A stretch of DNA of 64,000 nt from Ehretia macrophylla (lineage: Eukaryota; Streptophyta; Magnoliopsida; Boraginales; Ehretiaceae), in the NCBI GenBank assembly GCA_037974665.1, contig CM075771.1, forward strand, positions 15,783,425 through 15,847,424, written 5' to 3'. Below are positions 17,119 to 64,000 of this stretch, piece by piece. The position numbers and the translations under genes are program-made. Positions within the stretch are counted from its first letter, which is position 1, and every line of letters begins with the position of its first letter. The notes under the pieces are model-generated. The model was not told where the DNA came from. It did not search any database and was given only the letters and a program-made list of their open reading frames with translations.

Positions 17119-17123
17119 CGAGT
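17119..17123. repeat. Target-site duplication of S1, right (CGAGT)
   Basis: It joins directly to the continuing E2 protease reading frame (GTATGTTTGCCATAC). Confidence 0.95.
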
Positions 17124-20423: not shown

Positions 20424-23400
20424 TGTGAGGCCCGACCTCAATTTGCATGCGATACCTCATTTCGTGTGCCCTAGCCTAGATTTGCGTGCCTTGGCCTAGG
20501 TTTAAGAATCGTGTTTCGTTTTGTGTGCCTTGCGTTGAATTACGTGCATTTATTTAGGGTTGCGTACATTTACTTGGAAAACGTGCATTCGTCTCGTAGT
20601 TCTTGCGCTACCTCGTAATGCGTGCCCTAGACCTAGGAAAACGTGCCCTCACGCTAATCAAGAAAGCATCTTACATGAAGCACTAAGTCATTAATTAATC
20701 CTACAAATCCCACTAACTAATATTAAATTACTAATTCAACCCACTAGAAGACGAAATTGCACCAAAAGCTAGACATTCTTTATTCTTTATTCCTTATTCT
20801 TTTGCACTTTCCAAACACACAATTAAATAATGCTCAAAAGATGACAAAGATTCAGCATTTTTCATGCCTTGGCTGACCACCTTGTGTGCTTTGTGCTTAC
20901 TTTGCATAATTCAAATTATTCCCCAAACATTCTATGACAATGTAATAACACAAAGCATAAAAAATTAGCTCAAAACCCTCCTCAAAGCTCCCAATCTCGA
21001 CATAAGCTCCTTGCCCATGCTAGGTGATTCAAAAATCATGCTTCTTGAAGACACAAAATCTGAAATTACAAAGCTCAAGGCCGACACATGCTTCAAACCT
21101 TGCAAAAGCTTTTATTTTTCTTTCATTTCTCTCATTTCCTCTCATTCTTCTCTCTCCCTCTCATCCTTCTCACTCTCTCTCGGCCTTGGCTGAGTTTCTA
21201 CACTCCATAGCTTATCTTCATCACTCCGTGGTTCATCAAGGCATGCAAGAAGCTAGGGAGCTCGACTAAGCAAGCTAGGTTGCAAGAAACACACATGCAA
21301 GCTCTTTGAATCTCCATTTCGGCTTAGGTGAGTTTGCTAGCTTCCATTTCTTTTCTTCTTGTTCTAACCACATGCACCTACTAAGAACTTGGTTACTAAG
21401 CTAGGAAATTTGAGAAAAATCGAGTGGTGTCTCGGCTAAGCAAGGAAAAAGGTCAACTTTGTGCTTCACCAAGAGTCTTGTGCATCTTCTTGTTGTTTTG
21501 CTAAGGTGAGGGCTAAAACTTCTTGAAAATCTTTCAAAAAAAACCACATGCATGCCCTTAAATGTCTATCTTTACTTCTGTACTTGAGATATATGTGTGT
21601 TCATAAGCTTTTATAACCATGCATGGCAAGATTTTGGGCTAGAATGTGATGATAGATGAAATCGTGCATGTGACAGCTTTCTGTCTTGTTGATGCGAGGT
21701 GATTTTGGCTAGGTAAACGATGTTTAAAATGTGTGAAAATTGGTATATAACTAGTTTTGCCAGTTCTGAACACTGTTTGCTGAAATAGACCAAAGCTAAT
21801 TTTGAATCTAAGTTCCTCAAAATGGCTAATTATTAAAATGTGTCCAAATCTGGAAAGTCTGGAAAAATGAAGCAGGTTTTGGCAGATTCACTGGCCTTGT
21901 AGAACGAACCAGTTTTGACTTAGCAAATGATATCAAAAATGCATGAAATTTGGTGGTTTACTTTATTTTTCAATTCTAGACATTTGTGTCAGGAATGGAC
22001 TAAGGCTAAATCTGACCCTAAGGCCCTAAAAAACGACAAGTATTGAAATGTGTGCAAATCTGGACAGTTTTGTGCAGTCTCACTGTTTTGGCTATAACTA
22101 TTGAACCTGAACTCCAAATTATGCGAGGTTTGTTTCTGAATTTAGTTCACTTCTTAATATTTAATTAGACATCTTATTCACTAGAATTGGAGATTGTTTC
22201 CTTGTCTTAATGATTGTGAGAAAACAGTCCATTGCAGTGAGGGTTTTACTTAGTGATATGCTTAGAAAAATTATTGTAGTTTCTCTTGTTGTATTAAATG
22301 CTTGAGATTGTGGCATTTGGATGTTGTGGGGACTGTTTTGAATGCTTGAGGGTGTATGAACTAATCAATGCATGGCTTGAGCTTAATTACGAGATGACTT
22401 GGGGCTTAATCGCACGGGTAAGCACGAATTGGAACCCTAGTATCTAGGTAAACTTGCTAAGTGTCGATCCTTTGGATGTTGTGTTTGATCATGTGTTTAG
22501 TAGGCTGCCCGTAGTTGCCCTTGTAGCCCTAAATATGCTTTCGATGATTACATGTTGATAAGTAGGCTTTTCTTGCACCCGGTCCCACGTAGATGCCGTT
22601 GCATGTTGAATAATCTTATTATTTGATTACGTGAACTTTGAAATGAGTTATATGACTTGATTTACATGCGTTACATGGCTGCCCGTTTAATGTTCATATA
22701 ACTCCATGTGCATTTCGAGCGAATTTACTTGTCATATCGTGCCTCGCGTGTTTAACTGTCAATGTGCAATCTTATGACTGCTCGGAGGCAACCTACTTTG
22801 TTGTCCTCCTAATGTGATATATATTACATGTCATAAATGTGCATTGCATACAAGGTTGCAACCTTTCATTCTGGCGTGGTAGCATTCATGCACATCGGGC
22901 GGCATCGGGCTTGCCGGTGCAACCGTGACTACCATTGTCCAATTCCCTCTCTCGCTTGGGGGCTAGACTTCCTCGGAGAGTTGGGTCATAGGATTTCGGG
23001 GTACATCCGGAGTACACCCATTTGGCGTGATAAGGGGATAATTTGAAGTCGGCCGCAACAACTTATACTGACATGAATTGAGAGCAAAAGCTCACCGTAT
23101 CCTTTTCACTATGTGTATAAGGACTCTCGTTTGGTTCCTAGAGGGCCTCGGGGAGGAAGGACGGGTAATTGTGTTCCTTTATTTTTATATTATGTTATGT
23201 ACTTACTTGTGATATGTTCATGCTTGGAAAAAGGGTTTTCATAAGTTGAAACGGAAAATGAGTTTCAAAACTTATTTCTCGTTCCCCCTCGTTGAGTTCA
23301 TAAGGACTCACCCTCTTTTATCATCTCAGGTGAAGAAGATCAAGAACAGATACCCGAGGACGATGTGCCTAACGATGATTCCTTGGAATGATTGCCTGTC

Positions 23401-24019
23401 CTATGTGTTTTGCTTGATTATGGCCATTGTGAACACTATGCTGCTTGAAGACTATTTCTTTTCATGTTGCTTGATGTTTGTAATGTAAAAGACCCCCGTT
23501 GTAATTTGGGGTCTAATTTTGGCTTGTACTAATAATAACTAGACAGACACTACTATGGTCGTTTTGCTTTCGGTTCTGGCTAATATCTATCATAGGATTA
23601 TGAAGTATCAGCTAAGGACTAAGTAAAATGAACCTATTCAATCGTAAGCAGGTACTCATTCTTAAGCTAAGATCAACAGGTACTTTTGTAACGAGGATTA
23701 ACAAACAAACGAGACATAGTATCATGCTATGTTATTAATCAAACGAGACTTCGAGATAACTAGTAGGCATTTCAATTGATGGTAAATAGTAATCTTAGTT
23801 GGAAATGAAATTGAGATTGGAAAATTTGAGGCGTTTAGAGAATTAGGTCAAACCAAAGATCCCAATTACAATCGTTATGCTTCCGGTTTTCCAAAAAATT
23901 ATGGAGTTTAGGCTAAAACGTAAGTGTTAAACTTTCATGAACGATTAAGTATGAGATATGACTTGAATATTTAGATCACACCCTAGTCTAACATTTATAG
24001 GCTGGGTTGGGGCGTGACG
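20424..24019 (+). repeat. E2 3' LTR
   Basis: A close copy of 8450-12037 by eye, about 3.60 kb, with a CT tract (21117-21182) and the module. The last base is G instead of A (GTGACG). Short frames inside parallel those of the 5' LTR and are not genes. Confidence 0.92.
22784..23039 (+). promoter_or_regulatory. Shared LTR module, E2 3' copy
   Basis: The clearest hairpin of this type: arm GGAGGCAAC at 22784, loop CTACTTT, arm GTTGTCCTCC ending 22809. GGTTGCAACC is at 22854-22863, CTCTCGCTTGG..CTCGGAGAG at about 22951-22980, and ACATCCGGAGTACACCC at about 23004. Confidence 0.68.
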
Positions 24020-24446
24020 CCGAGGACATGGGGCCTATGGCCAGGTCTCCGTCGCTTCGGTGCATATAACTTTTGATCCGTATGGAGTTATGCGGTGCAC
24101 AGCATACTGTTGGAAAGCTCTCCGAGAGCTCTACGATAGGGGCAGCAAGCTTGCTATGCTGCGCCTAATTTTGGTACCCAAAATCAAACATTTTCAACAG
24201 TTTCGGACCATTTTTACGATGTTTTTTAGGCCCAGGTCGTTCATCGTGAGCCACGAAAAGAACGAGAACCCAACTCGTGGAACATTAGAGGGCTCTACAA
24301 TGCGTCGATATCACATCTTGCGGTAAAGCTGCGTTGTTGAAGCAGATGGGCTGTCGATAAACCCAATGGGCCTTTTGAATGGTTCGTCTCTCTTGGCTGG
24401 GACTGTGAACCGTCAACACATAAGGGCTTTGTACCATTAACGTCAC

Positions 24447-26071: not shown

Positions 26072-27167
26072 TGTCATGCCCCAACCCGACCTATGGAGAC
26101 TAGACTAGGGTATGACCTAAATCATTATCGTTATTTTACGACTATAACCGATTCATGAAGATTAATGCTTATTCGTTACCCTAAAACTCCAAAAGTTTTT
26201 CCGGAAAACCGGCAGCATAACGGTTGAATTTAGGACTTTTGGTTTGGCCTAATTTCTAGAACACCTCAAAAATTCCAAATCTTTAATTTGATGCCAACTA
26301 TCATTCCTATCAACCGATATGCCTACTAATTTATCTTGAAGGTCCCATTTGGTTAATAAGCCTAGCATGATAACTATGTCTCGTTTATTTGTCAATTTAC
26401 CCCTATCATGTACGTAACTATTATCCTTTAGCTTACGAATGAGTACCTAAGTGGAATTAGATAGAGTTAACTTAGTTATTTATTCACCTAGTGGTTTAAA
26501 CGCCTATGATAACTACTAACCAAGATAATGAAAGCAAACAACCAAATAAAGAGTTCGTCCGGTTATGGATAGTACAATCCAAAATTAGACCCAAATTACA
26601 ACGAGGTCATTTACATCAACGAAATAAAGAGTCCGCAAACAAACACAACATCCCTAATAGCATCCATGTTCACGAAAAGCATGCAATGCACATAGTCGTT
26701 CCAAAGGTTGATCAACTAGCACATTTTCTTCGGGTACCTATTCCAAATCTGTTTCATCTGTGACAAAAAATAGGGTGAGTCCTTATGAACTCAACGAGAG
26801 GGGAACAAGTGACAAGGTTTTGAAATCCTTTTCCGGTTAATCTTATGAAAACTCTTTTGGAAACATGTTATATAAAATAAGTAAGTTCATAACATAACAT
26901 AAATATAAATGAACACATTTACCCGTCTTTCCACCCCGAGGTCCTCTAGAAACCAAGTGGGAGTACTTAAATACATAGTAAAAAGGATACGTTTTGATAC
27001 GTACAGGGCTCTAGAGGTGGCTCCTACGGGCTCAAGAGGTAGCTCCCACCACTTTTAGGTGTAGCACTTTGCCCCACATAGCACTTAGTTCCTGCCGTTC
27101 AAGGGATACATTATGCTTTTGCCTTCAAGTTCATTTCCAATAACCATTGTTGTAGCCGGCATCGATC

Positions 27168-27420
27168 ATCCACTTATCACTCCAAATGGGTGTACTCCGG
27201 ATGTACACCAAATCCTACGACCCAACTCTCCGAGGAAGTCTAGCCCCCAAGCGAGAGAAGGAATTGGACCATGGTAGTCACCGTAGCACTGGCAAGCCCG
27301 ATGCCACTTGGCGTGCGTGAAACTCTACCATGCCAAAATGAAAGTTTGCAACCTTGTATGCAATGCAAATTTATGCCTTTTAACAATTCACATTAGGAGG
27401 TCAACAAAGTAGGTTGCCTC
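27168..27420 (-). promoter_or_regulatory. Shared LTR module, S2 copy
   Basis: Read on the minus strand, the hairpin arm GGAGGCAAC, loop CTACTTT and arm GTTGACCTCC occupy 27395-27420. The palindrome is mutated to GGTTGCAAAC (27344-27353). The TCCGGAGTACACCC box and CTCGGAGAG arm follow toward 27180. Confidence 0.62.
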
Positions 27421-27741
27421 TGAGCAAGTATATGATCACATTTTGACATATTGGCATCTAAGGCATTGTAAAACATATAATCATTTCATATATCAATTTG
27501 AAAGAAATTAAGCTTTCACGGGCAGCCAAGTAATCATGTTTAAAATAAGCCATAGAATATCAATTCACATTAGGAGGTCAACAAAGTAGGTTGCCTCCGG
27601 ATACATGTATGATCACATATCGACAAGTAAACATACGAGGTATGCTTTGACATGTAATTTCACTTTGTAAAACACTTAGGAGCATGTGAACATTTAACGA
27701 ACAGCCAAGTAACACCATATAAAACAAGTCATATAGCTCAT
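27384..27741 (-). repeat. Direct duplication of about 178 bp inside S2
   Basis: CACATTAGGAGGTCAACAAA occurs at about 27389 and again at about 27567. Both are followed by GTAGGTTGCCTC, a CAT-rich stretch, then CAGCCAAGTAA and an AA.AAGCCATA-type end. The other LTRs of the group have this segment once, so S2 has two copies of the GGAGG..CCTCC hairpin. Confidence 0.75.
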
Positions 27742-30378
27742 TTTAGTTCACATATCAAGTGTTGAGATCATACAAGCATGCTACTACACTTACACAAAGC
27801 CGGGTGAAGAATAGTTCACTTATCAACATGCAATTATCGAGAATCATGTTTAGAGCTACAAAGACAATTACAGGCAGCCTATTAACACTCCTCCACATAA
27901 ATTATAAGTCACACGAGAGTGGTTTATGACTTGGGAGTCTACATGGTCATTAGGGTTTATAAGGGCCATGCTCAGGTGTTGATTTTGTTCGCTAAGGATC
28001 ACAAGAAACACTTAAACCATTTCAAGCATACTTAGCAATTATTGGACAGCCTACTAACCACTCAATTGAACACATTTGACCATAGAATCATCACTTAGCA
28101 AGTATTCATAAGCAATAGGGGCTCAATTTCGTGTTTACACATGCGATTAAGCAACAGCTCATCATGTAATAATCCCAAGTCATGCATCAATTAATTAAGC
28201 ATCCTCAACCAACCAAAACAGCCCACACAACTTCTAATTTCCACAATTCCAAGCATTCAACACCTCAAGTAAAGTTACAACATGATTTAAAGCACAGTAC
28301 CAAAAAAAATTCTACTGCAATGATCTATTTTTCCTCATTCATTTAGCCAAGTAAATAACCTCAAAAATCAATGAACCAAATTTCAAATCGAAGCTTAATG
28401 AGTGCTTTAAATCCAGGAACAAACCTCGCTGCATTCCGAGTTCGGACTTAGGAGTTATGACCAAAAGCGTGAGAATACGCAAAACTGTCCAGTTTCATAC
28501 ACATTTCGATATTTGCCATTGTTGGGGGCGTTGAACGCGAAATTAGCCTTAGCCTATTTCTGCATAATATGTTCAGAACTGACAAATATAGTGATATACC
28601 AAATTTAATACATTTTTAACATCTTTTGCTATCTTAAAAATGCTCCGAACAGAAGGATCAGTAAACTCGGCAGATTAGTAATACTTACTTGCATGGCTTG
28701 AAAACCACTTTAAACTTCAAAATCCAAAGGTGCTATCAACATGAAAGTTGTTATTTTTCCTCTTTACTACAACATATCCAGAAATCATGCATATCTAAGC
28801 ATGTTTACTATATTAAATCGTCCATGCAAGAACAGTGCACAACATAGACTTCAATGAAGTTATACTAGCAAGTTTTACATATATCTTCACATGCATGGCT
28901 TTATAATCACATATCATGCTTATGAACCTTTGAAAATACATTAAAAACAGTTTAGAACCCTCACCTTGATGAAGATTAAGCAAGAATTGAAGCAAGCAAA
29001 TGCCAAGATTGAAACTAGCTAGCCAAAGCCTTTCTTTTCTTCTCCTTCTTTCTTTCTTTCTCTTTCTCTCCCTCTTCTTCTTTCTCTTCCTCTCTTGCAC
29101 GACCCTTACCCTCTCTAAATCTGATTTTTCTTGTTTTGAATTAGTGTATGGGTGATAAGAACTAAGCAATGGAATATAATAAGCTTTTGTTGAACTCTAG
29201 GCATGAAAATGTGCATAAAGCTCTTACAAAGTGTATTTTTATGAGTCTTGTGTTTAGTGTTGTCATAGGAATTTTTTTTTTTGTTTCTTGTGTGACTTTA
29301 AATTATAATTGTGTGTAAGAGAATGTTGGGTTGTTTGTCTTCTAGTGGGTTGAATTAGGATTAAAGTATAGTATTAATAGGTAGTGCGTTTTGTAGGAAA
29401 AGGTGATTAGGTATATTATATTGGGGATGGTTTGGGTTATGATAGGATTTTGTCTTACAGTGAATTTGAATTAGGATTAAAATAATGTTAGTGGATGTTT
29501 AGGACTAATTTAATGTTATTTTATAGTTAGTGAAATTTGTAGGATTTGAATTAAGAATATAATAGTAGTTAGTGGATTGTGTAGGATTATTTTATTGTCT
29601 AGTGCTTTGTGTAGGAATCTTTATTGATTAGCTGCCAGGCACGCATTCCTAGGTGAAGGTACGTAAACCAATGAAAGACACGCATTTCAATGCAACACAC
29701 ATAAATCAAGGTATGTCACTTAAATCTAGATTACGACGCGCAATTCAAGGTTAATGCACACAAATCGAGGTATTGCACGTAAATCGATGATTTAGGGCAC
29801 ACAATTCTATGTATCGTACGTAAATCAAGGTCAGGGCATGTATAACAAGGCATGCACAGAAACCAAGACAGGGCACATAATCCAAGGTTGGTCATATAAT
29901 CCTGGGTCTAAGGCAAGCAAATCGAGGTAATACATATTATTCAGGGTCAGGCCTCACATGTGAACAGGTCTCTATCGCTCTAGTGCCCATAATTTTTGAT
30001 CCATAAGGAGTTATGTAGTGCACAACATACTTTTGGAAAGCTCTCTGGCAGCTCTACGACGAGGGCAACAAACCTGCTTGGATGTGCCTGTTTTCGGTAC
30101 CCAAAATCGAACATTTTCTTCAGTTTTGGTCCACTTTTCTTCTTTTTGCACTATTTTTTAGGCCCGGGTCGTTCGTCGCGAGCCACGAAAAGGATGAGAA
30201 CCCAACACGCGGAATACTAGAGGGCTCTACAACGCGTAGATATCACGTGTTGCGGTGAAGCTGCGTTGTTGAAACAGATGGGGTATCGATACGCTCAATG
30301 GGCCTTTTGAATGGTTCGTCTCTCTTGGCTGGGACTTTGAACTGCCAAAACATAAGGGTTTTGCACCATCAATATGAC

Positions 30379-36659: not shown

Positions 36660-36672
36660 AAGGTGGGGAGGA
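36660..36672 (+). other. E3 first polypurine tract
   Basis: AAGGTGGGGAGGA, with one T interrupting the purines, directly before LTR-B. Confidence 0.85.
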
Positions 36673-39600
36673 TGTGAGGCCCGACCTAGATTTGCATGCG
36701 ATACCTTGTTTCGTTTGCCCTAACCTTGAACTGCGTGCCTTAACCTAGGTTTAAGAGTCGTATCTTGATTTACGTGCCTTGCATTGAATTATGTGCATTC
36801 TTTTAGGGTTGCGTGCATTTACTTAGAATACGTGCATTTGTCTTGTAGTTCATGATTTATCTCGTAGTGCGTGCCCTAGACCTAGGAAAACGTTCCTACA
36901 CACTAATCAAGAAAGCATCCTACACAAAGCACTAGACTATTAAATAATCCTACAAATTCCACTAACTAATATTCTAATCCTAAGTCAATGCACTAGAAGA
37001 CAAAATTTCACTAAGCACTAAACACTCTTATTCTTTATTGTTTATTCCATTTGCAAAACCCATGCACCTAAAATACCACATCAACCTACAATAAATTATT
37101 CCTAAAACAACACAAAAATTCAGAATTTAACATCACTTGGCCGACCATACCTTGTGCTTGAGCAAAAATTTGAACAATATAACTCATTCATGCATGCTAA
37201 TACACAATCTTACACATTGTCATATCTTTTTCATACACCAAAGCATTATTTTATTAACCACCATGCTCCACATTCTTGGCCACATCACCAAGCATTCCAA
37301 ACAAATCAAACATGCTCCAAAAGATGACACAAATTCAGTTCTTGCAAGCCTAGGGCCGACCACATGCACAAACATGTCATTTCTTTTTCTCAAACTCTCA
37401 TTCTCTCATTTTCTCTCTCTCTCTCGGCCTTGGCTGCATCCTTAAGCTCCATAGCTCAAGCTCATCTTCTGAAGCTCACCTAAGCTCTCAAAGACTCTAA
37501 GGAACTCGACCATAGCAAGCAAAGCATGAAAAACACATGCAAGCTCACAAAAATTCTTCATTCTCGGCTTTAGGTATGTTGTGATAGCTTTCTTTCATTT
37601 CCTTTTGTTCTAATCACATGCACACACTAAGAAGATGCTAACTAAGCTAGGAAATTAAAGAACAACAAGCTATCTCTCGGCCAAGCAAGGAAAGAAGATC
37701 CTTTTGTGTATTTTGAAGACCATTTGTGCATCTTCATCTATTAACTTGCTAAGGTGAGGGTTAAACTCATTTAAAAGCATTCAAAAATCACATGCATGCA
37801 TTCTTATGACTATATTTACCTCTGTAGTTGTTGTATATGTGTGTATATGAGCTTATATGACCATGCTTGGCTAGATTTTTGGCTAGAACTTGAAGATAGG
37901 TAATAATCGAGTAGTTGGCAGATTTCTGACTTGGTAGAGCGAAGTGCATTTGGCCTAGTAAATGATGTTGAAAATGCATGACAATTCGTAGGTTACTAGT
38001 TTTTGCAGCTCTGGACATTGTTGTCAGAAATAGACCAAAGCCAATTATGACTCTAAGGCCCTCAAAAATAGCAAAAATCGTGATGTGTCTAAAACTGGAC
38101 AGTTTTGCGTAGTCTAACGGTTTTGGCCATAACTCCTAAGTCTGAACTTCAAATGATGCGAGGTTTGTTCCTAGATTTAAATCACTCATTAAGATTTAAT
38201 TTGAAATTTTTTTCACCAAAATTGGAGATTGTTTGCTTGTCTAACCGAATGTAGGAAAACAGACCATTGCAGTGAGGGTTTTGTTTAGTGATGTGCTTAG
38301 AATCATGTTGAGACCTTGCTTGGGGTATTGAATGCTTGGAATTGTGGTACTTGGATGTTGTGTGGGCTGTTGTGGTTGGTTGAAGTTGCTTAATGTGATT
38401 GACGTATGGTTTGGGATCATTAATCGATGAATGGTATGCTTAATTGCACGTTTAAGCACGGAATTGAGACCCTAACGCTTATGACTTTTATTAAGAGATG
38501 GCCTATTGGTTAAATGTGACAATTTGTGTGGTTAATAGGCTGCCCGTAGTTGTCCTTATAGCTCTAAATATGATTTCCGATGATTGCATGTTGCTAAGTG
38601 AGCTATTCTTGCATCCAGTCTTGTATAAATGTTGTTGCATGCTTGTATAATGTTAATACTTGATACGTGAACCCCAAAATGAGTTATATGACTTGATTTA
38701 TATGTGTCACTTGGCTGCCCATTTAATGTTCATATGACTCCACATGTTTTACAAAGTGAAAATTCATGTTAAGCATGCCTCATTCGTTTACTTGGCAATA
38801 TGTGATCTTGAAATTGCTCGGAGGCAACCTACTTTGTTGTCTTCCTAATGTGAATCGTTAAATGGTATAAATTTTCATTGTATACAAGGTTGCAACCTTT
38901 CATTGTGGCATGGTAGTGTTTTACGAATGCCTGGCGGCATAGGGCTTGCCGGTGCTCCCGTGACTTCCATGGTTCAATTCCCTTTCATGCTTGGTATTCC
39001 ATCCTCGGAGAGTTGGGTCGTAGGATTTCGGGGTACATCCGAAGTACATCCAATTGGGAGCAATAAGTTGATAATTGAAGTCTGCCGCACAATTGCTATC
39101 GAAAATGAATTGAGAGGAAAAGCTCACCGTATCATTTTCACTATGTGTTTAAGTACTCTCGCTTGGTTCCTAGAGGACCTCGGGGAGGAAAGACGGGTAA
39201 ATGTGTTCTTTTACACTCATATTATGCTATAAATTTACTTGTGTTATACTTCATGCTTTCAAAAAGGGGGTTTTATAAAGTTTAACTGGAAAAGAGTTTC
39301 AAAACATATTTCTCGTTCCCACTCGTTGAGTTCATAAGGATTCACCCTCTTTTGTCATCACAGGTGAAGAAGATCAGGAACAGGTACCCGAGGATAACGT
39401 GCCTATTGAGGACTCCTTGGAGTGATTGCCTGCTCTACGTGCCTTACTTGACTGTGGCTATTTTGTGAATGATATGTTTGTTTTGAAGACTATCTCTTAT
39501 GTTGTTTGTCGTTGTTATTGTAAATGACCCCCGTTGTAATTTGCGGTCTAATTTTGGTTTGTACTGATCATAACTAGACAGACACTCTTTTGGTTGTTTT

Positions 39601-40057
39601 GCTATCACCACTTTGATTAGTAGCTACTACAGGCTTATGAAGTATTAGGCAAAAAGCCAAGTAAAATGAATCTATCCAATCTCAAGTAGGTACTCATTTG
39701 TAGGCCAAGGGATAACAGACACTTGTATAACATGAATTAACAAACAAATGGGACATAGTTATCATGCTAGGTGTTAATCTAACGAGACTTTGAGATAAAT
39801 AGTAGGCATATCAATTGGTGATAAATAGTAACCTTAGTTGGAATTGAATTTGAGATTGAAGGTTTTGAGGCGTTTAGAAATTAGGTTAAACTAAAGAGCC
39901 TAATTACAGCCGTTACGCTGCCGGTTTTCTGGAAAATTTTGGAGTTCTAGTTTAATCGATAAGCTTAACCTTAGTCAACCGGTTATAGTCATAAAAGAAG
40001 ATGAACGGTTAGATCATACCCTAGTCTAACCTCTATAGGTCGGGTTGGGACGTGACA
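36673..40057 (+). repeat. E3 LTR-B (middle LTR)
   Basis: TGTGAGGCCCGACC to GACGTGACA, 3.39 kb, complete. It serves as 3' LTR of interior 1 and 5' LTR of interior 2. A CT tract lies at 37395-37430. Confidence 0.92.
38820..39067 (+). promoter_or_regulatory. Shared LTR module, E3 LTR-B copy
   Basis: The hairpin begins at 38820 (right arm weakened to GTTGTCTTCC). GGTTGCAACC is at 38888-38897, followed by CTGGCGGCATAGGGCTTGCCGG, CCTCGGAGAG, GTCGTAGGATTTCGG and ACATCCGAAGTACA. Confidence 0.65.
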
Positions 40058-40068
40058 CCTTATATTAA

Positions 40069-42703: not shown

Positions 42704-42716
42704 AAGGAGGGAAGAA
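42704..42716 (+). other. E3 second polypurine tract
   Basis: AAGGAGGGAAGAA directly before LTR-C. It has two G-to-A changes relative to E2. Confidence 0.85.
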
Positions 42717-45700
42717 TGTGAGGCCCGACCTCGATTTGTTTGCGATACCTCATTTCGTGTGCCCTAACCTTGAACTGCGTGCCTTAACCTAGGTTTAAGA
42801 GTCGTATCTTGATTTACGTGCCTTGCATTGAATTACGTTCATTCTTTTAGGGTTGCGTGCATTTACTTAAAATATGTGCATTCGTCTCGCAGTTCGTGCT
42901 TTATCTCATAGTGTGTGCCCTAGACCTAGGAAAATGTGCCTACACGCTAATCAAGAAAGCATCCTACACGAAGCACTAGACTATTAAATAATCCTACAAA
43001 CTCCACTAACTAATATTCTAATCCTAAGTCAATGCACTAGAAGACAAAATTTCACTAAGCACTAAACATTCTTATTCTTTATTCCTTATTCCTTTTGCAA
43101 AACCCATGCACCTAAAATACCACATCAACCTACAATAAATTATTCCTAAAACAAGACAAAAATTCAGAATTTATCATCACTTGGCCGACCATACCTATGT
43201 GCTTGAGCAAAAATTTGAACAAAATAAATTATTCATGCATGCTAATACACAATATTACATATTGTCATATCTTTTCCATACACCAAAGCATTATTTTATT
43301 AACCTCCACGCTCCACATTCTCGGCCACATCACCAAGCATGCCAAACAATTCATACATGCTTCAAAAGATGACACAAATTCAGTTTTTGCAAGCCTAGCA
43401 TCATTTCTTTTTCTCAAACTCTCATTCTCTCATTTTCTCTCTCTCTCTCGGCCTTGGCTGCATCCTTAAGATCCATAGCTCAAGCTCATCTTCTAAAGCT
43501 CACCTAAGCTCTCAAAGACTCTAAGGAACTCGACCATAGCAAGCAAAGCAAGAAAAACACATGCAAGCTCACAAAAACTCTTCATTCTCGGCTTTAGGTA
43601 TGTTGTGATAGCTTTCTTTCATTTCCTTTTGTTCTAATCACATGCACACACTAAGAAGATGCTAACTAAGCTAGGAAATTAAAGAACAACAAGCTATCTT
43701 TCTGCCAAGCAAGGAAAGAAGATCCTTTTGTGCATTTTGAAGACCATTTGTGCATCTTCATCTATTAACTTGCTAAGGTGAGGGTTAAACTCTTTTAAAA
43801 GCTTTCAAAAATCACATGCATGCATTCTTATGACTATATTTACCTCTGTAGTTGTTGTATATGAGCTTATATGACCATGCATGGCTAGAGTTTTGGCTAG
43901 ACCTTGAAGATAGGTAATAATCGAGTACCCGGCAGATTTCTGACTTGGTAGATCGAAGTGCATTTGGCCTAGTAAATGATGTTTAAAATGTGTGAAAATT
44001 TGTAGGTTGATAGATTTTGCAGCTCTGGACATTTTTGTCAGAAATAGACCAAATTCAATTATGACTCTAAGACCCTAAAAAATAATAAAAATCGTAATGT
44101 GTCTAAAACTGGACAGTTTTGCGTAGTCTCACGGTTTTGGCCAAAACTCCTAAGTACGAACTCCAAATGATGCTAGGTTTGTTCCTAGATTTAAATCAAT
44201 CATTAAGCTTTAATTTTAAATTTGTTTCACTGAAATAGGAGATTGTTTTCTTGTCTAATCGAATGTGGGAAAACAGACCATTGCAGTTAGGGTTTTGTTT
44301 AGTGATGTGCTTAGAATCATGTTGAGACCTTGCTTGGGGTATTGAATGCTTGGAATTGTGGTACTTGGATGTTGTGTGGTCTGTTTTGGTTGGTTGAAGT
44401 TGCTTAATGTGATTGATGTATGGTTTGGGATCATTAATCGATGAATGGTATGCTTAATCGCACGTTTAAGCATGGAATTGAGACCCTAACGCTTATAACT
44501 TTTGTTAAGAGATGGCCTATTGGTTAAATGTGTCAATTTGTGTGGTTAATAGGCTGCCTGTAGTTGTCCTTATAGCTCTAAATATGATTTTCGATGATTG
44601 CATGGTGCTAAGTGAGCTATTCTTGCATCCGGTCTCATATAAATGTCGTTGCATGCTTGTATAATGTTAATACTTGATACGTGAACCCAGAAATGAGTTA
44701 TATGAGTTGATTTATATGTGTCACTCGGCTGCCCGTTTAATGTCCATATGACTCCACATGTTTTACAAAGTGAAAATTCTTGTTAAGCATGCCTCATTCG
44801 TTTACTTGGCAATATGTGATCTTGAAATTGCTCGGAGGCAACCTACTTTGTTGTCCTCCTAATGTGAATCGTTAAATGGTATAAATGTTCATTGTATACA
44901 AGGTTGCAACCTTTCATTGTGGCATGGTAGCGTTTCACGAACGCCGGGCGGCATAGGGCTTGCCGGTGCTCCTGTGACTACCATGGTCCATTTCCGTCTC
45001 TCGCCTGGGAATCCACCCTCGAAGAGTTGGGTCATAGGATTTTGGGGTACATCCGGAGTACACCGAATTGGGAGCGATAAGTGGATAATTGAAGTCGGCC
45101 GCACAATTGCTATCGAAAATGACTTGAGAGCAAAACCTCACCGTATCCTTTTCACTATCTGTTTAAGTCCTCTCGCTTGGTTCCTAGAAGACCTCAGGGA
45201 GGAAAGACGGGTAAATGTGTTCTTTTGCACTCATATTATGCTATAAATTTACTTGTGTTATGCGTCATGCTTTCAAAAAGGGGTTTTTATAAAGTTTAAC
45301 TGGAAAAGAGTTTCAAAACGTATTTCTCGTTCCCCATCGCTGAGTTCATAAGGACTCACCATCTTTTATCATCACAAGTGAAGAAGATCAGGAACAGGTA
45401 CCCGAGGATAACGTGCCTATTGAGGACTCCTTGGAGTGATTGCCTACCCTATGTGCCTTACTTGACTGTGGCTATTTTGTGAACGATATGTTTGTTTTGA
45501 AGACTATCTCTTATGTTGTTTGTCGTTGTTATTGTAAATGAGCCCCATTGTAATTTGGGGTCTAATTTTGGTTTCTACTGAATATAACTAGACAGACACT
45601 CTTTTGGCCATTTTGCTATCACCACTTTGATTAGTAGCTACTACAGGCTTATGAAGTATTAGGAAAAAAAAAGCCAAGTAAAATGAATCTATCCAATCTT

Positions 45701-46075
45701 AAGCAGGTACTCATTTGTAGGCTAAAGGATAACAGACACTTGTATAATAGGAATTAACAAATAAACAGGACATAGTTACCATGCTAGGTGTTAGTCAAAT
45801 GAGACTTCGAGATAAATAGTAGGCATATCAATTGGTGATAAATAGTAACCTTAGTTGGAATCGAATTTGAGATTGAAGGTTTTGAGGTGTTTAGAAAATT
45901 AGGTTAAACTAAAGAGCCTAATTACAACCGTTACGCTGGCGGTTTTCCAGAAAATTTAGGAGTTCTAGTTTAACAGATAAGTTTAACCTTAGTCAACCGG
46001 TTATAGTCGTGAAAGAACATGAATAATTAGATCACACCCTAGTCTAACCTCTATAGGTCGGGTTAGGGCATGACA
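42717..46075 (+). repeat. E3 LTR-C (3' LTR)
   Basis: TGTGAGGCCCGACC to GGGCATGACA, 3.36 kb. The end abuts the GGAAG duplication and 5S spacer. It has a CT tract at 43410-43450 and the full module. Confidence 0.92.
44834..45083 (+). promoter_or_regulatory. Shared LTR module, E3 LTR-C copy
   Basis: Arm GGAGGCAAC at 44834, loop CTACTTT, arm GTTGTCCTCC ending 44859. GGTTGCAACC is at 44902-44911. CGGGCGGCATAGGGCTTGCC, the CTCTCGCCTGGG..CTCGAAGAG hairpin and ACATCCGGAGTACACC follow. Confidence 0.67.
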
Positions 46076-52948: not shown

Positions 52949-55900
52949 TGTCACGCCCCAACACAGCCTATAAAGGTTAGACTAGGGTGTGATCTAATCA
53001 TTCAAGTCATGTTTCGTACTTAACCGTTCATGAAGATTTAACACTTAACGTTTCGGCCTAAACTCCAAAATTTTCCGGAAAACCGGCAGCATAACGGTTG
53101 TAATTGGGCTCTTTGGTTTGACCAAATTCTCTAAACGCCTCAAAATTTACCATTCCAGATTCATTTCCCACTAAGATTACTATTTATCATCAGTTGATAT
53201 ACCTATTGGTTGTCTTGATGACTCGCTTGATTAATAACCTAGCATGATACTATGTGTCGTTCGTTTGTTAATCCTCATTACAAAAGTACCTGTTGATCTT
53301 AGCTTAATAACGTGTACCTGCTTAAGATTTGGTTGGTTCATTTTACTTAGCCTTTACCTAATGCTTCATATTCCTATTACAGATACTAGCAGTAATAATA
53401 GCAAAATGACCATAGTAATGTCTAGTGTCTGTCTAGCAATATCAGTACAAACCAAAATTAGACCCCAAATTACAACGGGGGTCTTTTACATTACAAATAA
53501 CAAGCAACATAAAGGAAATAGTCTTCAAGTAGCATAAAGTTCACAAGTAGCCACAATCACGCAAAGCACACATGACAGGCAATCACTCCAAGGATTCATC
53601 GTTAGGCACATCGTCCTCGGGTACCTGTTCTGGATCTTCTTCACCTGAGATGATAAAAGAGGGTGAGTCCTTATGAACTCAGCGAGGGGAAACGAGAAAT
53701 AGGTTTTGAAACTCATTTTCCGGTTCAACTTATGAAATCCTTTTGCAAGCATGAATATAACAATAATATAAGTACAGGAACAGAAATACCAGTCTTTCCT
53801 CCCCGAGGTTCTCTAGGAACCAAGCGAGAGTATTTATACACATAGTAAAGGATACAGTGAGCTTTTGCTCTCAGATCAGTTCCAGAATCAGTTGTTGTGG
53901 CCGACTTCAAATCATTCCCCAAACACGCCAGGTGGGTGTACTCCAGATGTACCCCGAAATCCTACGACCCAACTCTCCGAGGAAGTCTAGCCCCCAAGCG
54001 AGAGAGGGAATGGGACCATGGTAGTCACAGGTGCACCGGCAAGCCCGATGTCGCCCGGTGTGCGTGATCGCTACCATGCTGACAGGAAAGGTTGCAACCT
54101 TGTATGCAATGCACATTTATGGCATTTAATATATCACATTAGGAGGACAACAAAGTAGGTTACCTCCGGACAGTCATAAGATTGCACATTGACAAGTAAA
54201 CAGGCAGGGCACGATAAGACAAGTAATTTCACTTGAAAGGCATATAGAGTTATATGGACATTAAACGGGCAGCCATGTAACACATGTAAATCAAGCCATA
54301 TAACTCAATTCAAAGTCCACGTAATCATATAATAAGATTATATAACTTGCAACAACATCTACGTGGGCTCGGATGCAAGAAAAGCCTATTTGTCAACATG
54401 CAATGATCAAAACCACATTTAAGGCTATAAGGAAACTACGGGCAGCCTACTAAACATATAATTACACTCAATATTCAAAGGATCAACACTTAGCAAGTTC
54501 GCCTAGTCACTAGGGTTTCCATTTCATGCATATCCGTGCAATTTGAGCCCCAAACCAACTCAAAGTCAATCTCAAGCCATGCATCATTTAATTCAACATC
54601 CTCAAACATTCAAAACAGTCCACACAACATCCCAAAGCTACAATCCCAAGCATTTAATTCAACAAGAGAAGTTACAACAATTTTTCTAAGCATAACACAA
54701 AGTGAAACCCTTACTGCAATAGGCTGTTTTCTCACAATCATTATGATAAGCAAAAAATATCCAAATCCAGTGAATAAGATGTCAAATTAAAGCTTAAGAA
54801 GTTAACTAAAATCAGAAACAAACCTTGCATCATTTGGAGTTCGGGATCATTAGTTATAGCCGAAACAGTGAGATAGCACAAAACTGTCCAGATTTGCACA
54901 CATTTCGATAATTGACGTTTTTGAGGTCCTTATGGTCAGTTTTAGCCTTAGTCCATTTCTGACAAAAATGTACAGAACTGAAAAATGTAGCAGTACTAGT
55001 CAGAGAGCTGTCAACAATCCTACTTCACCTATCATTACTTTCAAGCCAAGATCTTGCCATGCATGGTTGCAAAAGCTTATGAACGAACATATAACTCAAG
55101 TACATAAGCAAAGACATACTTTTATGAGCATGCATGGGGATTTTGAAGGATTTTCAAAAGGTTTTAGCCCTCACCTTAGCAATCAACCAAGAAGATGCAC
55201 AAAACTTGTTGAAGCACAATTTTCTTCTCCTCCTTTGCCTAGTCGAGATTCCAACTAGATTTTCTCTATTTTTCCTAGCTTAGTGACCAAGCTCTTAGTA
55301 CATGCATGAGGTTAGAACAAATAGAAAAGAAATGGAAGCTTAAAAACTCACCTAGGGCCGAAATGAAGACTCTATGTGCTTGTATGCATCTTTTGAGCTA
55401 ACTACTTTCTTTCCTTTGCTTGGGCTTGCCTTGAATGGCCTTAGGATGATGAAGATGAGTTGTGAAGTGAAGAGAATCAGCCAAAACCGAGATTGAGAGA
55501 GAAGAATGAGAGGGAGAGAGAGAAATGTGAGGAGAGTGAGAGAAATGAGAGAAAATAGAAGCTTTTGCAATTGTTGATGCAAATGTTGGCCTTGGGCATG
55601 CAAAAATCTGATTTTGTGTCATCTTTTGAATTGTTTTAGCATGTGTGTAAGAGAATGTTGGGTATTTAGGGATTTTAGGTAGAATAGAATATAGGATATG
55701 TTTAGAGGTTTGTGAGATTTTGTCTTGTAGTGAGTTTAAAATATAATATTTAGGTGTTAGTGGATTTTGTAGAGATTTGAATTAGGATTATAATAATAGT
55801 TAGTGATGTTTGTAAGATTATTTTATAGTCTAGTGCTTTGTGTAGGATTCTTTCTTGATTAACGTGGTGGCACGGATTCCTAGGTCTAGAGCGCGAATTA

Positions 55901-56307
55901 CGAGGTAGACACGAACTACGAGGTAAGACACGAACTTCAAGACTAATGCACGTACTTCAAGATAATTACACGGATTCCAATGCAAATGAACGCAACCCTA
56001 GGTAAATCTACGTAAACCAATACAAGGCACGTAATTCAATGCAATGCACGTAAATCGAGGTACGACTCTTAAACCTAGGTTAGGACATGCAATTCAAGGT
56101 CAGGGCACACAAAACGAGACAACGCACGCAATTCGAAGTCGGGGCACGTAAGTCGAGGATTAGGACACATAATTCTAGGTCAAGGCACGAATGACGAGGC
56201 ATGCACGAAAATCAAGACAGGGCACGTAATCCAAGGTCAGTCATATCATTCTTGGTCTATGGCACGCAAATCAAGGTAACATACGTTATTCGGGGTCGGG
56301 CCTCACA
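52949..56307 (-). repeat. E4 3' LTR
   Basis: It reads TGTCACGCCCCAAC at the left and GGGCCTCACA at the right. Compared with the 5' LTR it lacks about 270 bp at about 54995, where GAAAAATGTAGCAG jumps to ACTAGTCAGAGAGCTG. A GA-rich tract lies at about 55490-55550. Short frames in it are shadows. Confidence 0.92.
53916..54167 (-). promoter_or_regulatory. Shared LTR module, E4 3' LTR copy
   Basis: On the minus strand: hairpin at 54142-54167 (arm GGAGGTAAC, arm GTTGTCCTCC), GGTTGCAACC at 54090-54099, GCCGGTGCACC, CTCTCGCTTGG..CTCGGAGAG near 53971-54005, and ACATCTGGAGTACACCC. Confidence 0.65.
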
Positions 56308-59142: not shown

Positions 59143-59289
59143 TGTCACGCCCCAACCCGGCCTATAAAGGTTAGACTAGGGTGTGATCTAATCATTCAAG
59201 TCACGTCTCGTACTTAACCGTTCATGAAGATTTAACACTTAACGTTTTGGCCTAAACTCAAAAATTTTTTGGAAAACCAACAGCATAAC
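59143..59289 (-). repeat. E4 5' LTR, segment 1
   Basis: TGTCACGCCCCAACCCGG up to the ATAAC target site of S3. It continues at 61785. Confidence 0.9.
59285..59289. repeat. Target-site duplication of S3, left (ATAAC)
   Basis: Perfect match to 61780-61784. The host LTR reads CAGCATAACGGTTGTAATT in the sister LTR. Confidence 0.92.
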
Positions 59290-59894
59290 TGTAACGCCCC
59301 GATCCCTCACGAGACCGGAGGCTCTAATGACCATGCTATTCTCAACCCAATACCAAGCCCGGTCACAAAATTTTAGAGAAAAATGGACAGAGTTTCCTCT
59401 GTACCGCGGATATTTTTCAAACCTGTAAATGCTCAATAAAGCCACAACATAACAAGACATTCATTTATAACTAAAGATCTTAGCTTTAAGGCCATCCGAG
59501 CCTTAAGACATACAAACAGTTTAGATACAGACAAGCATGCATTCATAACTTAACTTCTTTACAAAACCGCTTATCATGCCACTCCATGATAGCTTTTAAG
59601 TATTCTTAGAAATTGAAAACAACCAGTCATTCACTCCCAAGCATGCGAAGCAGCTAATAGCAGAAATATAAGTTATTACATGTCATGGTTCTAAATCTAC
59701 CACTACAACATCTATCCCTCAATTTGCAAACTATATAATATACACATATCACTTAGGTTACAAAATAGAACATAAAGTAAAGAAAACAAGTCCTACTCTC
59801 ATCAACAAGAACATAGTCCACCTCAAGCAACTAGACACAGCAACTAATGCAACTCCTCCAACTGCGCCACCTAAAACATGTTAGCGAGGTATGA

Positions 59895-59908
59895 GCAACC
59901 ACTGTTGC
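59895..59908 (-). other. Distal module hairpin, S3 version (GCAAC / GTTGC)
   Basis: Five-base stem with a four-base loop, located after CCTCACTG on the minus strand, as the TGAGTTC hairpin of the E2 family follows CCTCGC. The bases differ but pairing is kept. Confidence 0.5.
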
Positions 59909-60099
59909 CCAGTGAGGGATAAGGTCCCGGGGCGTGCAATGCGACAAGTAATACAGTTAACAACAATAACAATTGAGCAAATCAAGAAACAATGATAGCT
60001 TAAATAACCACATATTTGAAAGGATACATTTCTCATAACCCCTATACACCAATCTTCACTGGTCTTCATTCACGATCCATGAACCACGATCACGATCAC

Positions 60100-60385
60100 G
60101 ATAAGCCGGCATAACCCCAAACACTCCAGTGGGTGTACTCCGGATGTACCCCGATAATCCTACGACCCAACATTCCCTGGCAATCTCCAGACCAGGCGAA
60201 TGAGGGACTAGGGCACGGAGTTTGAATATCCACCGGCAAGCCCTCTGCCGCCCAGCCGATATTCAACACATCTGCCCCTGACACTATGGTTGCGCAACCA
60301 CTATGCAATGCACTTAACAATGGCAAGTTAATAGCAATAATATAAGCATTAACACATAGGAGGATCAACAAAGTAGGTTGACCTC
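60100..60385 (-). promoter_or_regulatory. Shared LTR module, S3 copy
   Basis: Hairpin at 60360-60385 (minus strand arm GAGGTCAAC, loop CTACTTT, arm GTTGATCCTC). A 12-bp perfect palindrome GGTTGCGCAACC is at 60288-60299, then GGGCGGCAGAGGGCTTGCCGGTG, a CGCCTGG..AGG arm, GTCGTAGGAT, CGGGGTACATCCGGAGTACACCC and a GGCTTATCG end. Confidence 0.68.
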
Positions 60386-61779
60386 GAGGCAGTTAGAATA
60401 GAAGCAATTATATAAGCTAATAAGCAGTTTTACAAAGGGACATTTACAAAATAAGCATATAATCATACCAAAAGCTCCAAATCAACTTGAAACCACATAT
60501 AAACACTCAAGAAGTCATGCCATGGGTTTAGAAGTGTGAGTCAACCGAAATTGCACCTAAACTCCTTTATTTTTCAAACTATTTCTCTTCCAAACCAAGG
60601 TTAATGATTCCATTTTCAAGGAAAACTCTCACAACCTTCTAACTAACCCTCAAGGTACCCTCTCAACCCTCTAACTCATTCAAACGCCCGCGATTACCCC
60701 GAAAACCCCAAATTCCCTCTTATGGCTTTAAACTACACATACCTTATCCGGGCTTCAAACAAGGGTTATCAAAGCTTCTATAGCACCTAGGTAGCCTAAG
60801 AATACTAGAAGTGAAGCCCGAATCCACCCGGATTCGCATGAACCCCGAAACCCCTTTGTTAAAGTCGGCTATTTCACGTTTTATGCGATTCTAGAGCAAT
60901 TCAAGTGCACGGGGCTATTAGACTACCTTCATTAGCACCTAAGGCATCTATTAGGAGTGTTGAATCAAGCTAATATGTGCAATTACACAAAACCCTAGAA
61001 AAACGTCACTATTCACCTCATAAATTCAAATGACGATTCCAACCGTTTAAAATGCTAACTAATAGCTCAAATATGTTCTCTAGCACTTATATACAAGGTA
61101 TAATAACATAGATAAGCTTTGCAATAGCATTTGATAACATTTTCAACAAATCAAGAAAAATGTAACATTTTAAATATGCATAAAAAGTCATGAAAACCCT
61201 CACCAATTGCCCGTAAGAACTCTCGGAAGGCTAGCAAACACCCTAAACTACTTGCTCCTAGCTTGGCTTGGCTTGGCTTGAAGATTTGATGAGCAAAATC
61301 CTCTCATTCTCCTCCTACACTATTCTCGGATTTGCTACAGTGATTTTTCAGCATTTTTTTGTTTTGTTCTTTGCTAGTTATGAGCTAAGGTGGGTAATAT
61401 AGGGTGCATAGTTGGGTGGGGTCAAGTTTGGGTATTTAAAAGGTCACTTATAATGCGCGTAGTAAGCTTAAAACGAGCCTAAAGTGAAGCATGTGTGCTA
61501 GTTAATTAAAACTCTAAGTTAGTTACGTAACACTATTCATTGAACTACTAAAATCATTTTCTAAACGAGTGCTCCTATCGCTCCTAGCTCAATTGCACAA
61601 TTTTCACATTCCTTTAACAATTAATATGATTTAATAAAAATGCTAATTCACTAATATAATGCAGTTTAAAAATTGAATGAATAGTGACCAAGAAAGACAA
61701 CAGGTAAAGCACATAATTTAATGCACAATTAATGGATGCAACATTTAAAAATGTGTACGGTAGAATCTCGGGCGTCACA

Positions 61780-61784
61780 ATAAC
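61780..61784. repeat. Target-site duplication of S3, right (ATAAC)
   Basis: The E4 LTR resumes directly after it (GGCTGTAATTTGGCTC). Confidence 0.92.
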
Positions 61785-64000
61785 GGCTGTAATTTGGCTC
61801 TTTGGTTTGACCTAATTCTCTAACGCCTCAAAATTTACCATTCCAGATTCATTTGCCACTAAGATTACTATTTATCATCAGTTGATATGCCTATTGGTTG
61901 TCTTGATGACTCGCTTGATTAATAACCTAGCGTGATACTATGTCTCGTTCGTTTGTTAATCCTCGTTCCAAAAGTACCTATTGATCTTAGCTTAATAACG
62001 TGTACCTGCTTCAGATTTGGTTGGTTCATTTTACTTAGCCTTTACCTAATGCTTCATATTCCTATTACAGATACTAGCAGTAATAATAGTAAAATGACCA
62101 TAGTAGTGTCTAGTGTATGTCTAGCAATATCAGTACAAACCAAAATTAGACCCCAAATTACAACGGGGGTCTTTTACATTACAAATAACAAGCAACATAA
62201 AGGAAATAGACTTCAAGTAGCACAGAGTTCACAAGTAGCCACAATCACGCAAATCAACTAGACAGGCAATCACTCCAAGGATTCATCGTTAGGCACACTG
62301 TCCTCGGGTACCTATTCTGGATCTTCTTCACCTGAGATGATAAAAGAGGGTGAGTCCTTATGAACTTAAAGAGGGGGAACGAGAAATAGGTTTTGAAACT
62401 CATTTTCCAGTTCAACTTATGAAAATCCTTTTGCAAGCATGAAATAACAATAATATAAGTACAGGAACAGAAATACCAGTCTTTCCTCCCCGAGGCACTC
62501 TAGGAACCAAGTGAGAGTACTTATACACATAGTAAAGGATACAGTGAGCTTTTGCTCTCAGATCAATCCCAGAATCAGTTGTTGTGGCCGACTTCAAATC
62601 ATTCCCCAAACACGCCAGGTGGGTGTACTCCGGATGTACCCCGAAATCCTTCGACCCAACTCTCCGAGGAAGTCTAGCCCCCAAGCGAGAGAGGGAATGG
62701 GACCATGGTAGTCACGGGTGCACCGGCAAGCCCGATGCCGCCCGGTGTGCGTGATCGCTACCATGCCGACAAGAAAGGTTGCAACCTTGTATGCAGTGCA
62801 CATTTATGGCATTTAATATATCACATTAGGAGGACAACAAAGTAGGTTGCCTCCGGACAGTCATAAGATTGCACATTGACAAGTAAACAGGCAGGGCACG
62901 ATAAGACAAGTAATTTCACTTGAAAGGCATATAGAGTTATATGGACATTAAACGGGCAGCCATGTAACACATGTAAATCAAGCCATATAACTCAATTCAA
63001 AGTCCACGTAATCATATAATAAGATTATATAACATGCAACAACATCTATGTGGGCTCGGATGCAAGAAAAGCCTATTTGTCAACATGCAATGATCAAAAC
63101 CACATTTAAGGCTATAAGGCAACTACGGGCAGCCTACTATACATATAATTACACTCAATATTCAAAGGATCAACACTTAGCAAGTTCGCCTAGTCACTAG
63201 GGTTTCCATTTCGTGCATATCCGTTCAATTTGAGCCCCAAACCAACTCAAACTCAATCTCAAGCCATGCATCATTTAATTCAACATCCTCAAACATTCAA
63301 AACAGTCCACACAACATCCCAAAGCTACAATCCCAAGCATTTAATTCAACAAGAGAAGTTACAACAATTTTTCTAAGCATAACACTAAGTGAAACCCTTA
63401 CTGTAATAGGCTGTTTTCTCACAATCATTAGGATAAGCAAACAATCTCCAATTCCAGTGAATAAGATGTCAAATTAAAGCTTACGAAGTGATCTAAAATC
63501 ATAAACAAACCTTGCATCATTTGGAGTTCGGGATCATTAGTTATAGCCGAAACAGTGAGATAGCACAAAACTGTCCAGATTTGCACACATTTCTATAATT
63601 GACGTTTTTGAGGTCCTTAGGGTCAGTTTTAGTCTTAGTCCATTTCTGACAAAAATGTCCAGAACTGAAAAATATATCAGAAAACCAAATTTAAAGGATT
63701 TTGGACATCATTTACTAAGTCAAATATGGTTCGTTCTACAAGGTCAGTGCATCTGCTAAAACCTGCTTCATTTTTTCCAGATTTCCAGATTTGGACACAT
63801 TTTAAAGATTTGCTATTTTGAGGACTTTAGAGTCAAAATTAGCTTTGGCCTATTTCTACGAAAAATGTTGAAAACTGGCAAAAATAGTGACCCACCAATT
63901 TTCATGCATTTTCAACATCATTTGCCTAGCTAAACTTACCTCTAAATAAACTAGTCAGAGAGCTGTCAACAATCCTACTTCACCTATCATTACTTTCAAG
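61785..64000 (-). repeat. E4 5' LTR, segment 2 (cut by window end)
   Basis: It parallels 53100-55040 of the 3' LTR closely, and at 63676-63950 includes the approximately 270 bp that the 3' LTR has lost. The window ends inside it, so the true end and the second host duplication are not visible. Confidence 0.92.
62604..62854 (-). promoter_or_regulatory. Shared LTR module, E4 5' LTR copy
   Basis: Hairpin at 62829-62854 (arm GGAGGCAAC, loop CTACTTT, arm GTTGTCCTCC), GGTTGCAACC at 62777-62786, CGGGCGGCATCGGGCTTGCCGG, CTCTCGCTTGG..CTCGGAGAG and ACATCCGGAGTACACCC. Confidence 0.66.

Follow-up and report, generated by a model that had tools for sequence, protein, structure and literature searches.

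A conserved hairpin-and-palindrome module in the long terminal repeats of diverse retrotransposons of Ehretia macrophylla, a candidate signal for RNA dimerization or packaging

The locus and its LTR retrotransposons

The window, that is, the whole stretch of 64,000 nucleotides analysed here, is located on contig 8 of the 1.58-Gb genome of Ehretia macrophylla. It represents a 5S rDNA array, recognized by 22 Rfam matches to 5S, and is interrupted by LTR retrotransposons, named E1, E2, S1, S2, E3, E4, and S3. E1, on the plus strand, consists of LTRs at 683-2909 and 3570-5807 around an internal region of 660 bp; with only this much between two 2.2-kb LTRs the element is non-autonomous, and no Pfam match was found in the one ORF tested from its internal region. 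A 51-bp tandem repeat containing CACGTG is also present in each E1 LTR (1223-1408, 4126-4295), and windows in this region are much more stable than shuffles when folded (z about -9; 5' LTR, sense). E2, also on the plus strand, has LTRs at 8450-12038 and 20424-24021, the ends of the 3' LTR being deduced from those of the 5' LTR. Its coding region (12308-20299, plus strand), which S1 interrupts, carries gag, protease, RT, integrase, and SH3_Tf2-1, assigned by the Pfam domains Retrotrans_gag, RVP_2, RVT_1, rve, and SH3_Tf2-1. S3 is a solo LTR of 2490 bp on the minus strand (59290-61779; TGTGACGCCC...GGGGCGTTACA), inserted in an E4 LTR, with the TSD GTTAT read from the sequence at 59285-59289 and 61780-61784.

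Similar surroundings were seen on contig 1, where three of the sampled loci (L019, L020, and L025) contain extended arrays whose period is close to 678 bp and ten 5S rRNA matches were obtained in L020; contig 1 thus also has 5S rDNA-type arrays, and the same LTRs are inserted there.

Architecture of the module

The LTRs in the window share a module of about 235-320 nt, consisting of four hairpins (HP-A to HP-D) and a palindrome. A previous sequence-only reading of this DNA gave 60100-60385 as the module; this interval is the S3 copy only, lying on the minus strand. In S3, HP-A (60360-60385) is GAGGTCAAC-CTACTTT-GTTGATCCTC, with CTACTTT as the loop, and it is followed by the palindrome GGTTGCGCAACC (60289-60300) in its 12-base form, which the previous reading had described as an enlarged dyad. 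Next come the long hairpin HP-B (60210-60278), with the apex GCGGCAGAGGGCTTG at 60237-60251, and HP-C (60171-60202), arranged as CATTC-G(bulge)-CCTGG...CCAGG-GAATG. The link GGGTCGTAGG (60159-60168), conserved in the alignment of copies, leads to HP-D (60131-60152), GGGGTAC-ATCCGGA-GTACACCC, whose loop holds the self-complementary TCCGGA. HP-B, which has 23 pairs in S3 and approximately 25 in E2, is the largest structure of the module; the previous reading saw its apex, GGGCGGCATAGGGCTTGCC, but overlooked the hairpin.

On the plus strand, the module occupies 1840-2156 in the E1 5' LTR, with additional tandem HP-C-like hairpins at 2219-2291, and 4738-5054 in the E1 3' LTR, with additional HP-C-like hairpins at 5117-5189. 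It lies at 10807-11044 and 22784-23021 in the 5' and 3' LTRs of E2, at 15915-16147 in S1 (LTR at about 13559-17119, within E2), at 38820-39053 in E3 LTR-B (36672-40058, ends approximate), and at 44834-45067 in E3 LTR-C (42715-46075). The minus-strand copies are those of S2 (27186-27421 in the LTR at 26072-29959), the E4 3' LTR (53932-54167 in 52949-56203, ends approximate), and the E4 5' LTR (62619-62854, the LTR running from 61780 to beyond 64000), besides that of S3.

An ordered module had been claimed for 11 LTRs of the window, and all of them carry it: the landmarks occur far above shuffles, and their order is identical in the 11 LTRs aligned. GGTTGCAACC has nine matches in the window, each inside one of the LTRs (shuffle mean 0.05). 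When up to three mismatches are permitted, GGGCGGCATAGGGCTTGCC has ten matches (shuffle mean 0.02) and ACATCCGGAGTACACC nine (0.24), while the pattern CTCTCRCTTGGN{8,30}GGAGAG has eight (0.00). Some landmarks differ from their first description. The palindrome is exact in nine of the ten copies for which this was stated and is broken in S2 (GGTTGCAAAC); ACATCCGGAGTACACC is replaced in E1 by GGATA..AATCCGGA..TATCC; and the CTCTC..GGAGAG hairpin is absent from S3, which has at that place CATTC..GAATG, the same stem in compensated form.

In the LTRs measured (E1, the E2 group, S3, T, and U), 0.85-1.28 kb separate the palindrome from the LTR 3' end, with the PBS just beyond this end, while the 5' side varies from 1.3 to 2.6 kb among the LTRs available whole. 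Exact patterns searched through the 1.58 Gb of the genome gave at least 16,574 matches for the 10-mer form and at least 12,283 for the 12-mer form (together at least 28,857), and a second-half pattern gave at least 14,799, with none for the reversed control. The copies used below were collected by regular expression (59 matches, including a chance match in a 5S unit at position 7629 of the window and one locus counted twice, as L001 and L017); 28 representatives were picked by hand for folding and 26 for alignment. At one locus, L021, three short-S3 modules follow each other at a spacing of 3.53 kb and with 99.8% identity, in the order LTR-internal-LTR-internal-LTR, a layout that unequal recombination would leave.

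Fixed loops and covarying stems

The hairpins are conserved in an uneven way, with variable stems and constant loops. The stem of HP-B is CATGGTAG/CTACCATG in the E2 group, CACGATAG/CTATCGTG in E1, and TTGAATATC/GATATTCAA in S3, and family T has TCGAG/CTCGA at the position of TCACG/CGTGA of the E2 group, whereas the apex is nearly fixed (GCGGCAUCGGGCUUG as RNA); column identity in 26 copies is 93% in the apex versus 64% and 72% in the arms. The stem of HP-C is CTCTC/GAGAG in U, CATTC/GAATG in S3, and TTTCTC/GAGAAA in T, and a G that is bulged in the fold is kept in most copies between two co-changing stem parts. In HP-D the loop ATCCGGA is kept (column identity 97% in 26 copies) on stems such as GGGTAC/GTACCC (S3b) and GGGATAC/GTATCCC (T). 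The hexamer TCCGGA is present in 45 of the 57 copies with the site located, 11 of the 12 misses being one transition off, and structure prediction places this self-complementary sequence exposed in the HP-D loop. HP-A has CTACTTT in most copies, on CAAC/GTTG or CGGC/GTCG. In the X10 copy (L010), two successive HP-A-like hairpins, GGTGACCTACTTTGTCACC and GGGGCGACCTATCTTGTCATCCTC, were observed some 140 and 73 nt upstream of the palindrome. By the patterns used, HP-A and HP-D were not found in X34, and HP-A, HP-C, and HP-D were not found in the two F8 copies (L009 and L012), which have the palindrome and a weak HP-B; either the remaining module is dispensable in some families or the F8 copies have decayed.

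Covariation was analysed with an alignment-free arm-swap test, in which the 5' arm of one family is folded with the 3' arm of another, with only arm-to-arm pairs allowed; the null is a permutation at the level of families, which were grouped by hand within one genome. For HP-B, the native arms reach -23.7 kcal/mol versus -17.9 kcal/mol for the swapped ones (z -4.9; 0 of 2000 permutations; 28 copies of 14 families), and for HP-C -13.5 versus -9.4 kcal/mol (z -4.2; 0 of 5000; 24 copies, 12 families). Smaller differences were obtained for HP-D (-8.0 versus -6.6 kcal/mol; 25 of 5000) and HP-A (-8.7 versus -7.2 kcal/mol; 126 of 5000), each with 25 copies of 12 families. L034, L009, and L012 were left out by pattern for HP-A and HP-D, and L011, L037, L009, and L012 for HP-C; for L010, the upstream one of its two HP-A-like hairpins was used. 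In five of the 28 HP-B copies (L013, L042, L041, L009, and L012) the native pairing was better than only about half of the swaps or fewer. When swapped arms were folded without the constraint, the separation was weak (-31.7 versus -29.4) and many single copies failed.

Column counts agree in part with these results. In HP-C, 216 of 250 cells are paired and six of ten pairs have double changes (permutation 1 of 5000; 25 copies, E1 excluded), while the counts for HP-D are weak (187 of 5000). In the outer and middle stem of HP-B, two or three Watson-Crick types occur at four of 13 columns (16 copies; 15 for the middle block, from which E1 was excluded). Gaps were shifted by hand for T, U, and X10 in the HP-B columns and for T in those of HP-C and HP-D. 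The RNAalifold check suggested by the sequence-only reading counts against covariation: on an alignment made by sequence it gave 13 pairs, two with double changes, and a covariation term of -0.04, a weakness that we read as a consequence of stems too different in sequence to be aligned between the two large groups.

The antisense arms also pass the arm-swap test (z -3.6 for HP-B, -3.2 for HP-C, -2.7 for HP-A, and -2.3 for HP-D), so the test alone does not pick the strand. In the stem columns, cells with G-U outnumber those with A-C, 41 versus 19 (18 and 8 for HP-B in 16 copies, 19 and 8 for HP-C, 4 and 3 for HP-D), which leans toward the sense strand of RNA but does not prove it, because the copies are related. 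Minimum free energy was also considered as evidence for structure and rejected, as 160-nt windows of the module are ordinary (z from -0.1 to -1.9 in sense orientation in five LTRs; antisense from +1.0 to -3.3). On the basis of the arm swaps, which exceed their permutation null, and the HP-C columns, the structure of the module is very probably real, and a cis-acting RNA structure, as had been proposed before, is well supported: stems covary between families and loops stay fixed.

Relatedness of the carrier LTRs

The previous reading described E1 and S3 as otherwise looking unrelated to the E2 group. This holds for the LTRs compared by BLASTN with a word size of 7, though not for the tips, PBS, PPT, and coding regions. 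E1 and E2 LTRs match over 131 nt only (72%), at the module, and E2 matches the S3, T, and U LTRs over only 168-278 nt (67-75%), again at the module, T having a second stretch of 78 nt. E1 matches the long S3 form over 53 nt and gave no match at E 0.001 with the T, U, and other S3 LTRs. The LTRs of S3, T, and U are homologous wherever sequence is available (58-80%; the 5' end of T lay outside the comparison), and that of U is a mosaic, its 5' part being common to S3 (about 80%). The U internal region of L030 was seen to be 98% identical to the short S3 internal region, which indicates mosaic families.

Divergence along the LTRs is not the even one that would speak for homology throughout; similarity peaks at the module. 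In a five-family profile, aligned from 420 nt upstream of the palindrome to the LTR end, the four windows at 20-179 after the palindrome start have an identity of 0.61-0.71, the 99th percentile of the shuffled null being 0.42. Seven profile windows outside the module also pass this line weakly (0.44-0.53), so faint homology persists elsewhere in the LTR. E2 and S3 have a nucleotide identity of 66% across the module, compared with 55% in gag and 74% in RT.

The elements have the PBS TGGTATCAGAGC in common, their LTR tips are alike, and their PPTs are of the type TTTAAGGGGGAGAGGA. Ty3-type gag, protease, RT, and integrase were found in E2 (Pfam), and the S3-type element L022 encodes related proteins (tblastn; amino-acid identity to E2 of 36% in gag, 85% in RT, and 72% in IN). 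E1, T, and U are non-coding and are placed by tips, PBS, and PPT only. Together, these common parts and the related E2 and S3 proteins point to distant families of one Ty3 lineage, probably a chromovirus lineage, which we take to be Tekay/Del-like. A Chromo domain at the integrase C terminus of L022 scores 17.8 bits (E 0.0033), below the cut-off of 25.1; Pfam gave no Chromo match in the E2 coding piece, and a chromodomain search among solved structures returned nothing useful. Given the relatedness of E2 and S3 proteins and the distance of 0.85-1.28 kb from the LTR 3' end, transfer of the module between families by recombination, which had been suggested, is unnecessary, yet mosaic LTRs exist.

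Among the sampled elements, the non-coding carriers, which include E1, T, U, and short S3, have interiors of 0.57-1.05 kb. Further cis parts seen to be common to the elements are the tips, the PBS and the 30-70 nt or so that follow it, and the PPT with some 35-40 nt in front of the LTR. Weaker similarity (58-64%) also runs along parts of the non-coding interiors, so the module is not the sole additional shared part. About 60 nt from the PBS onward were observed to be conserved in E1, T, U, and S3 (83% between E1 and U), and this stretch, judged by eye, may form a hairpin GCTTA..TAAGC.

Changes of the palindrome and rejected readings

Decayed copies of the palindrome were considered as a source of covariation and rejected as evidence, since the changes of the centre fit decay. 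Among copies of the 12-mer, 93 are changed at both centre bases and 67 of these have TA, which decay explains because the centre is CpG. For the 10-mer, both centre bases are changed in 38 copies, to AT in 21, CG in two, TA in one, and a non-palindromic pair in 14; the single centre changes (460 and 514 among at least 16,574) predict about 14 AT. Covariation of the palindrome is limited to its two lengths. Eight of the 21 AT-centre copies look like one F8-like family with the palindrome GGTTATAACC, and a family-level double change may have occurred there.

A protein-coding module was rejected, as the spacing of landmarks modulo 3 varies (10, 9, and 7 of 26) and none of the frames stays open in every one of the 26 copies. 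A TATA box marking the start of R was likewise rejected, with no consistent TATA upstream of the module, and so was a retrozyme or hammerhead, for which the window, L022, L029, and L030 gave no match at the Rfam gathering score. The module had no matches in a viral-contig and a genome-contig collection, both described as being without plant genomes, and no description of it was found in the open-licence literature.

Possible function of the module

A role in the retroelement cycle, as proposed by the sequence-only reading, is supported indirectly by the retention of the module in both autonomous and non-coding elements; which role it is, we infer from the following. The module lies about 1 kb upstream of the LTR 3' end and is for this reason probably part of the 5' leader (R-U5) of the genomic RNA. 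The tips, PBS, and PPT leave three kinds of function to be accounted for: transcription, the processing or export of RNA, and dimerization or packaging. The best mechanism appears to be the last, to which we assign a probability of roughly 0.4, with both the dimer and the binding of Gag being predictions. According to this model, the module would be the RNA recognition signal of the element. Two genome RNAs would pair via the palindrome and/or kissing UCCGGA loops, and the Gag of the lineage would bind the fixed loops (CUACUUU of HP-A, the HP-B apex, and AUCCGGA of HP-D) and package the dimer. Non-coding elements would retain the module because they depend on the Gag of another element. The self-complementary palindrome and UCCGGA loop, the predicted gain on homodimer formation, and the duplicated HP-C-like hairpins of E1 may point in this direction. 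In five of the eight copies tested, the homodimer prediction gives the whole module the same gain as the palindrome; in six of the eight, the whole-module gain is reached by at most five of 100 shuffles.

Such an arrangement has counterparts in known systems. The DIS of HIV-1 is a hairpin loop with a six-base palindrome among other hairpins. Yeast Ty3 RNA is described to dimerize in vitro via a palindrome in a hairpin apex, and its PAL6 (CUGCAG, nt 391-396 of Ty3 RNA) resembles the module, whose counterpart is UCCGGA, in that one of several hairpins holds a palindrome of six bases in its loop (PMC11381356). Unlike these sites, the module is placed inside the LTR, with about 1 kb between it and the PBS, and has a 10- or 12-base palindrome in addition, and its dimer is a predicted one. 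Retrozymes, as presented in PMC4918200, are likewise non-coding, have their LTR tips, PBS, and PPT in common with Ty3 elements, and retain an RNA motif within the LTR; they differ by being hammerhead-bearing and non-autonomous, whereas here the LTRs measure kilobases and the motif is present in autonomous elements as well. Profile HMMs have linked residual conservation in long R regions to stem-loops, and in the same work models of plant Metaviridae LTRs could not be built owing to length variation (Benachenhou 2013; PMC3601003).

The same RNA structure might do another job, namely in the stability, export, polyadenylation, or translation of the element RNA. This is a doubtful alternative, though one to be taken seriously, as covariation reveals a structure and not its partner, and as an RNA structure that stabilizes plant retrotransposon RNA has been described: the ENE of Evade/Copia93, which aids mobility (PMC12501189). 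The ENE is presented there as a U-rich triplex motif of the 3' UTR, and the module is set apart from it by this description and Rfam only. With the S3 module, the only match listed by Rfam has E 0.42 and 17.6 bits against a gathering score of 55, and the self-complementary loop and duplicated E1 hairpins would suit binding or dimerization better.

Explanations that dispense with a functional RNA fare worse. That the palindrome, CTACTTT, and TCCGGA form the site of a dimeric regulator, or that a cruciform forms in the LTR promoter, would agree with a perfect dyad kept at 10 and 12 bp and with antisense arms that match as well; however, long stems that change in sequence and remain paired, a bulged G, and the excess of G-U over A-C are marks of RNA, and a DNA element is therefore improbable. 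Arm matching could also arise from mutation, with the opposite arm serving as the template for copying errors during reverse transcription. Such quasipalindrome correction is a known kind of event, and hairpins in reverse-transcribed RNA are likely substrates for it, but conserved loops, the bulged G, the GGGTCGTAGG link, and the order and position would be left unexplained, and we regard it as very unlikely. Hardly more credible is a functionless, slowly changing remnant of one ancestral LTR, or its spread by recombination: the homology of the S3, T, and U LTRs, the mosaic U, and the outside profile windows weakly over the null would fit it, whereas the uneven divergence with its peak at the module, and the E2-S3 identity there compared with gag and RT, argue against it.

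Significance

Structures for dimerization and packaging are already known in retroelements; one placed within the LTR and common to distant plant Ty3 families would be new. The main text of a 2025 review of the plant LTR-element life cycle contains neither the term dimer nor hairpin. It is possible, and proposed here only tentatively, that the module is the first dimerization/packaging signal of plant Ty3 retrotransposons, an in-LTR code of four hairpins and a palindrome that would set which autonomous families mobilize which non-coding elements. Plant LTR elements fill large genomes, yet little seems to be known of how their RNA is selected for packaging. A short module in which loops are conserved and stems covary, common to coding and non-coding elements, would offer a direct handle on packaging, and it may serve as a probe to find and group elements once the rest of the LTR stops aligning.
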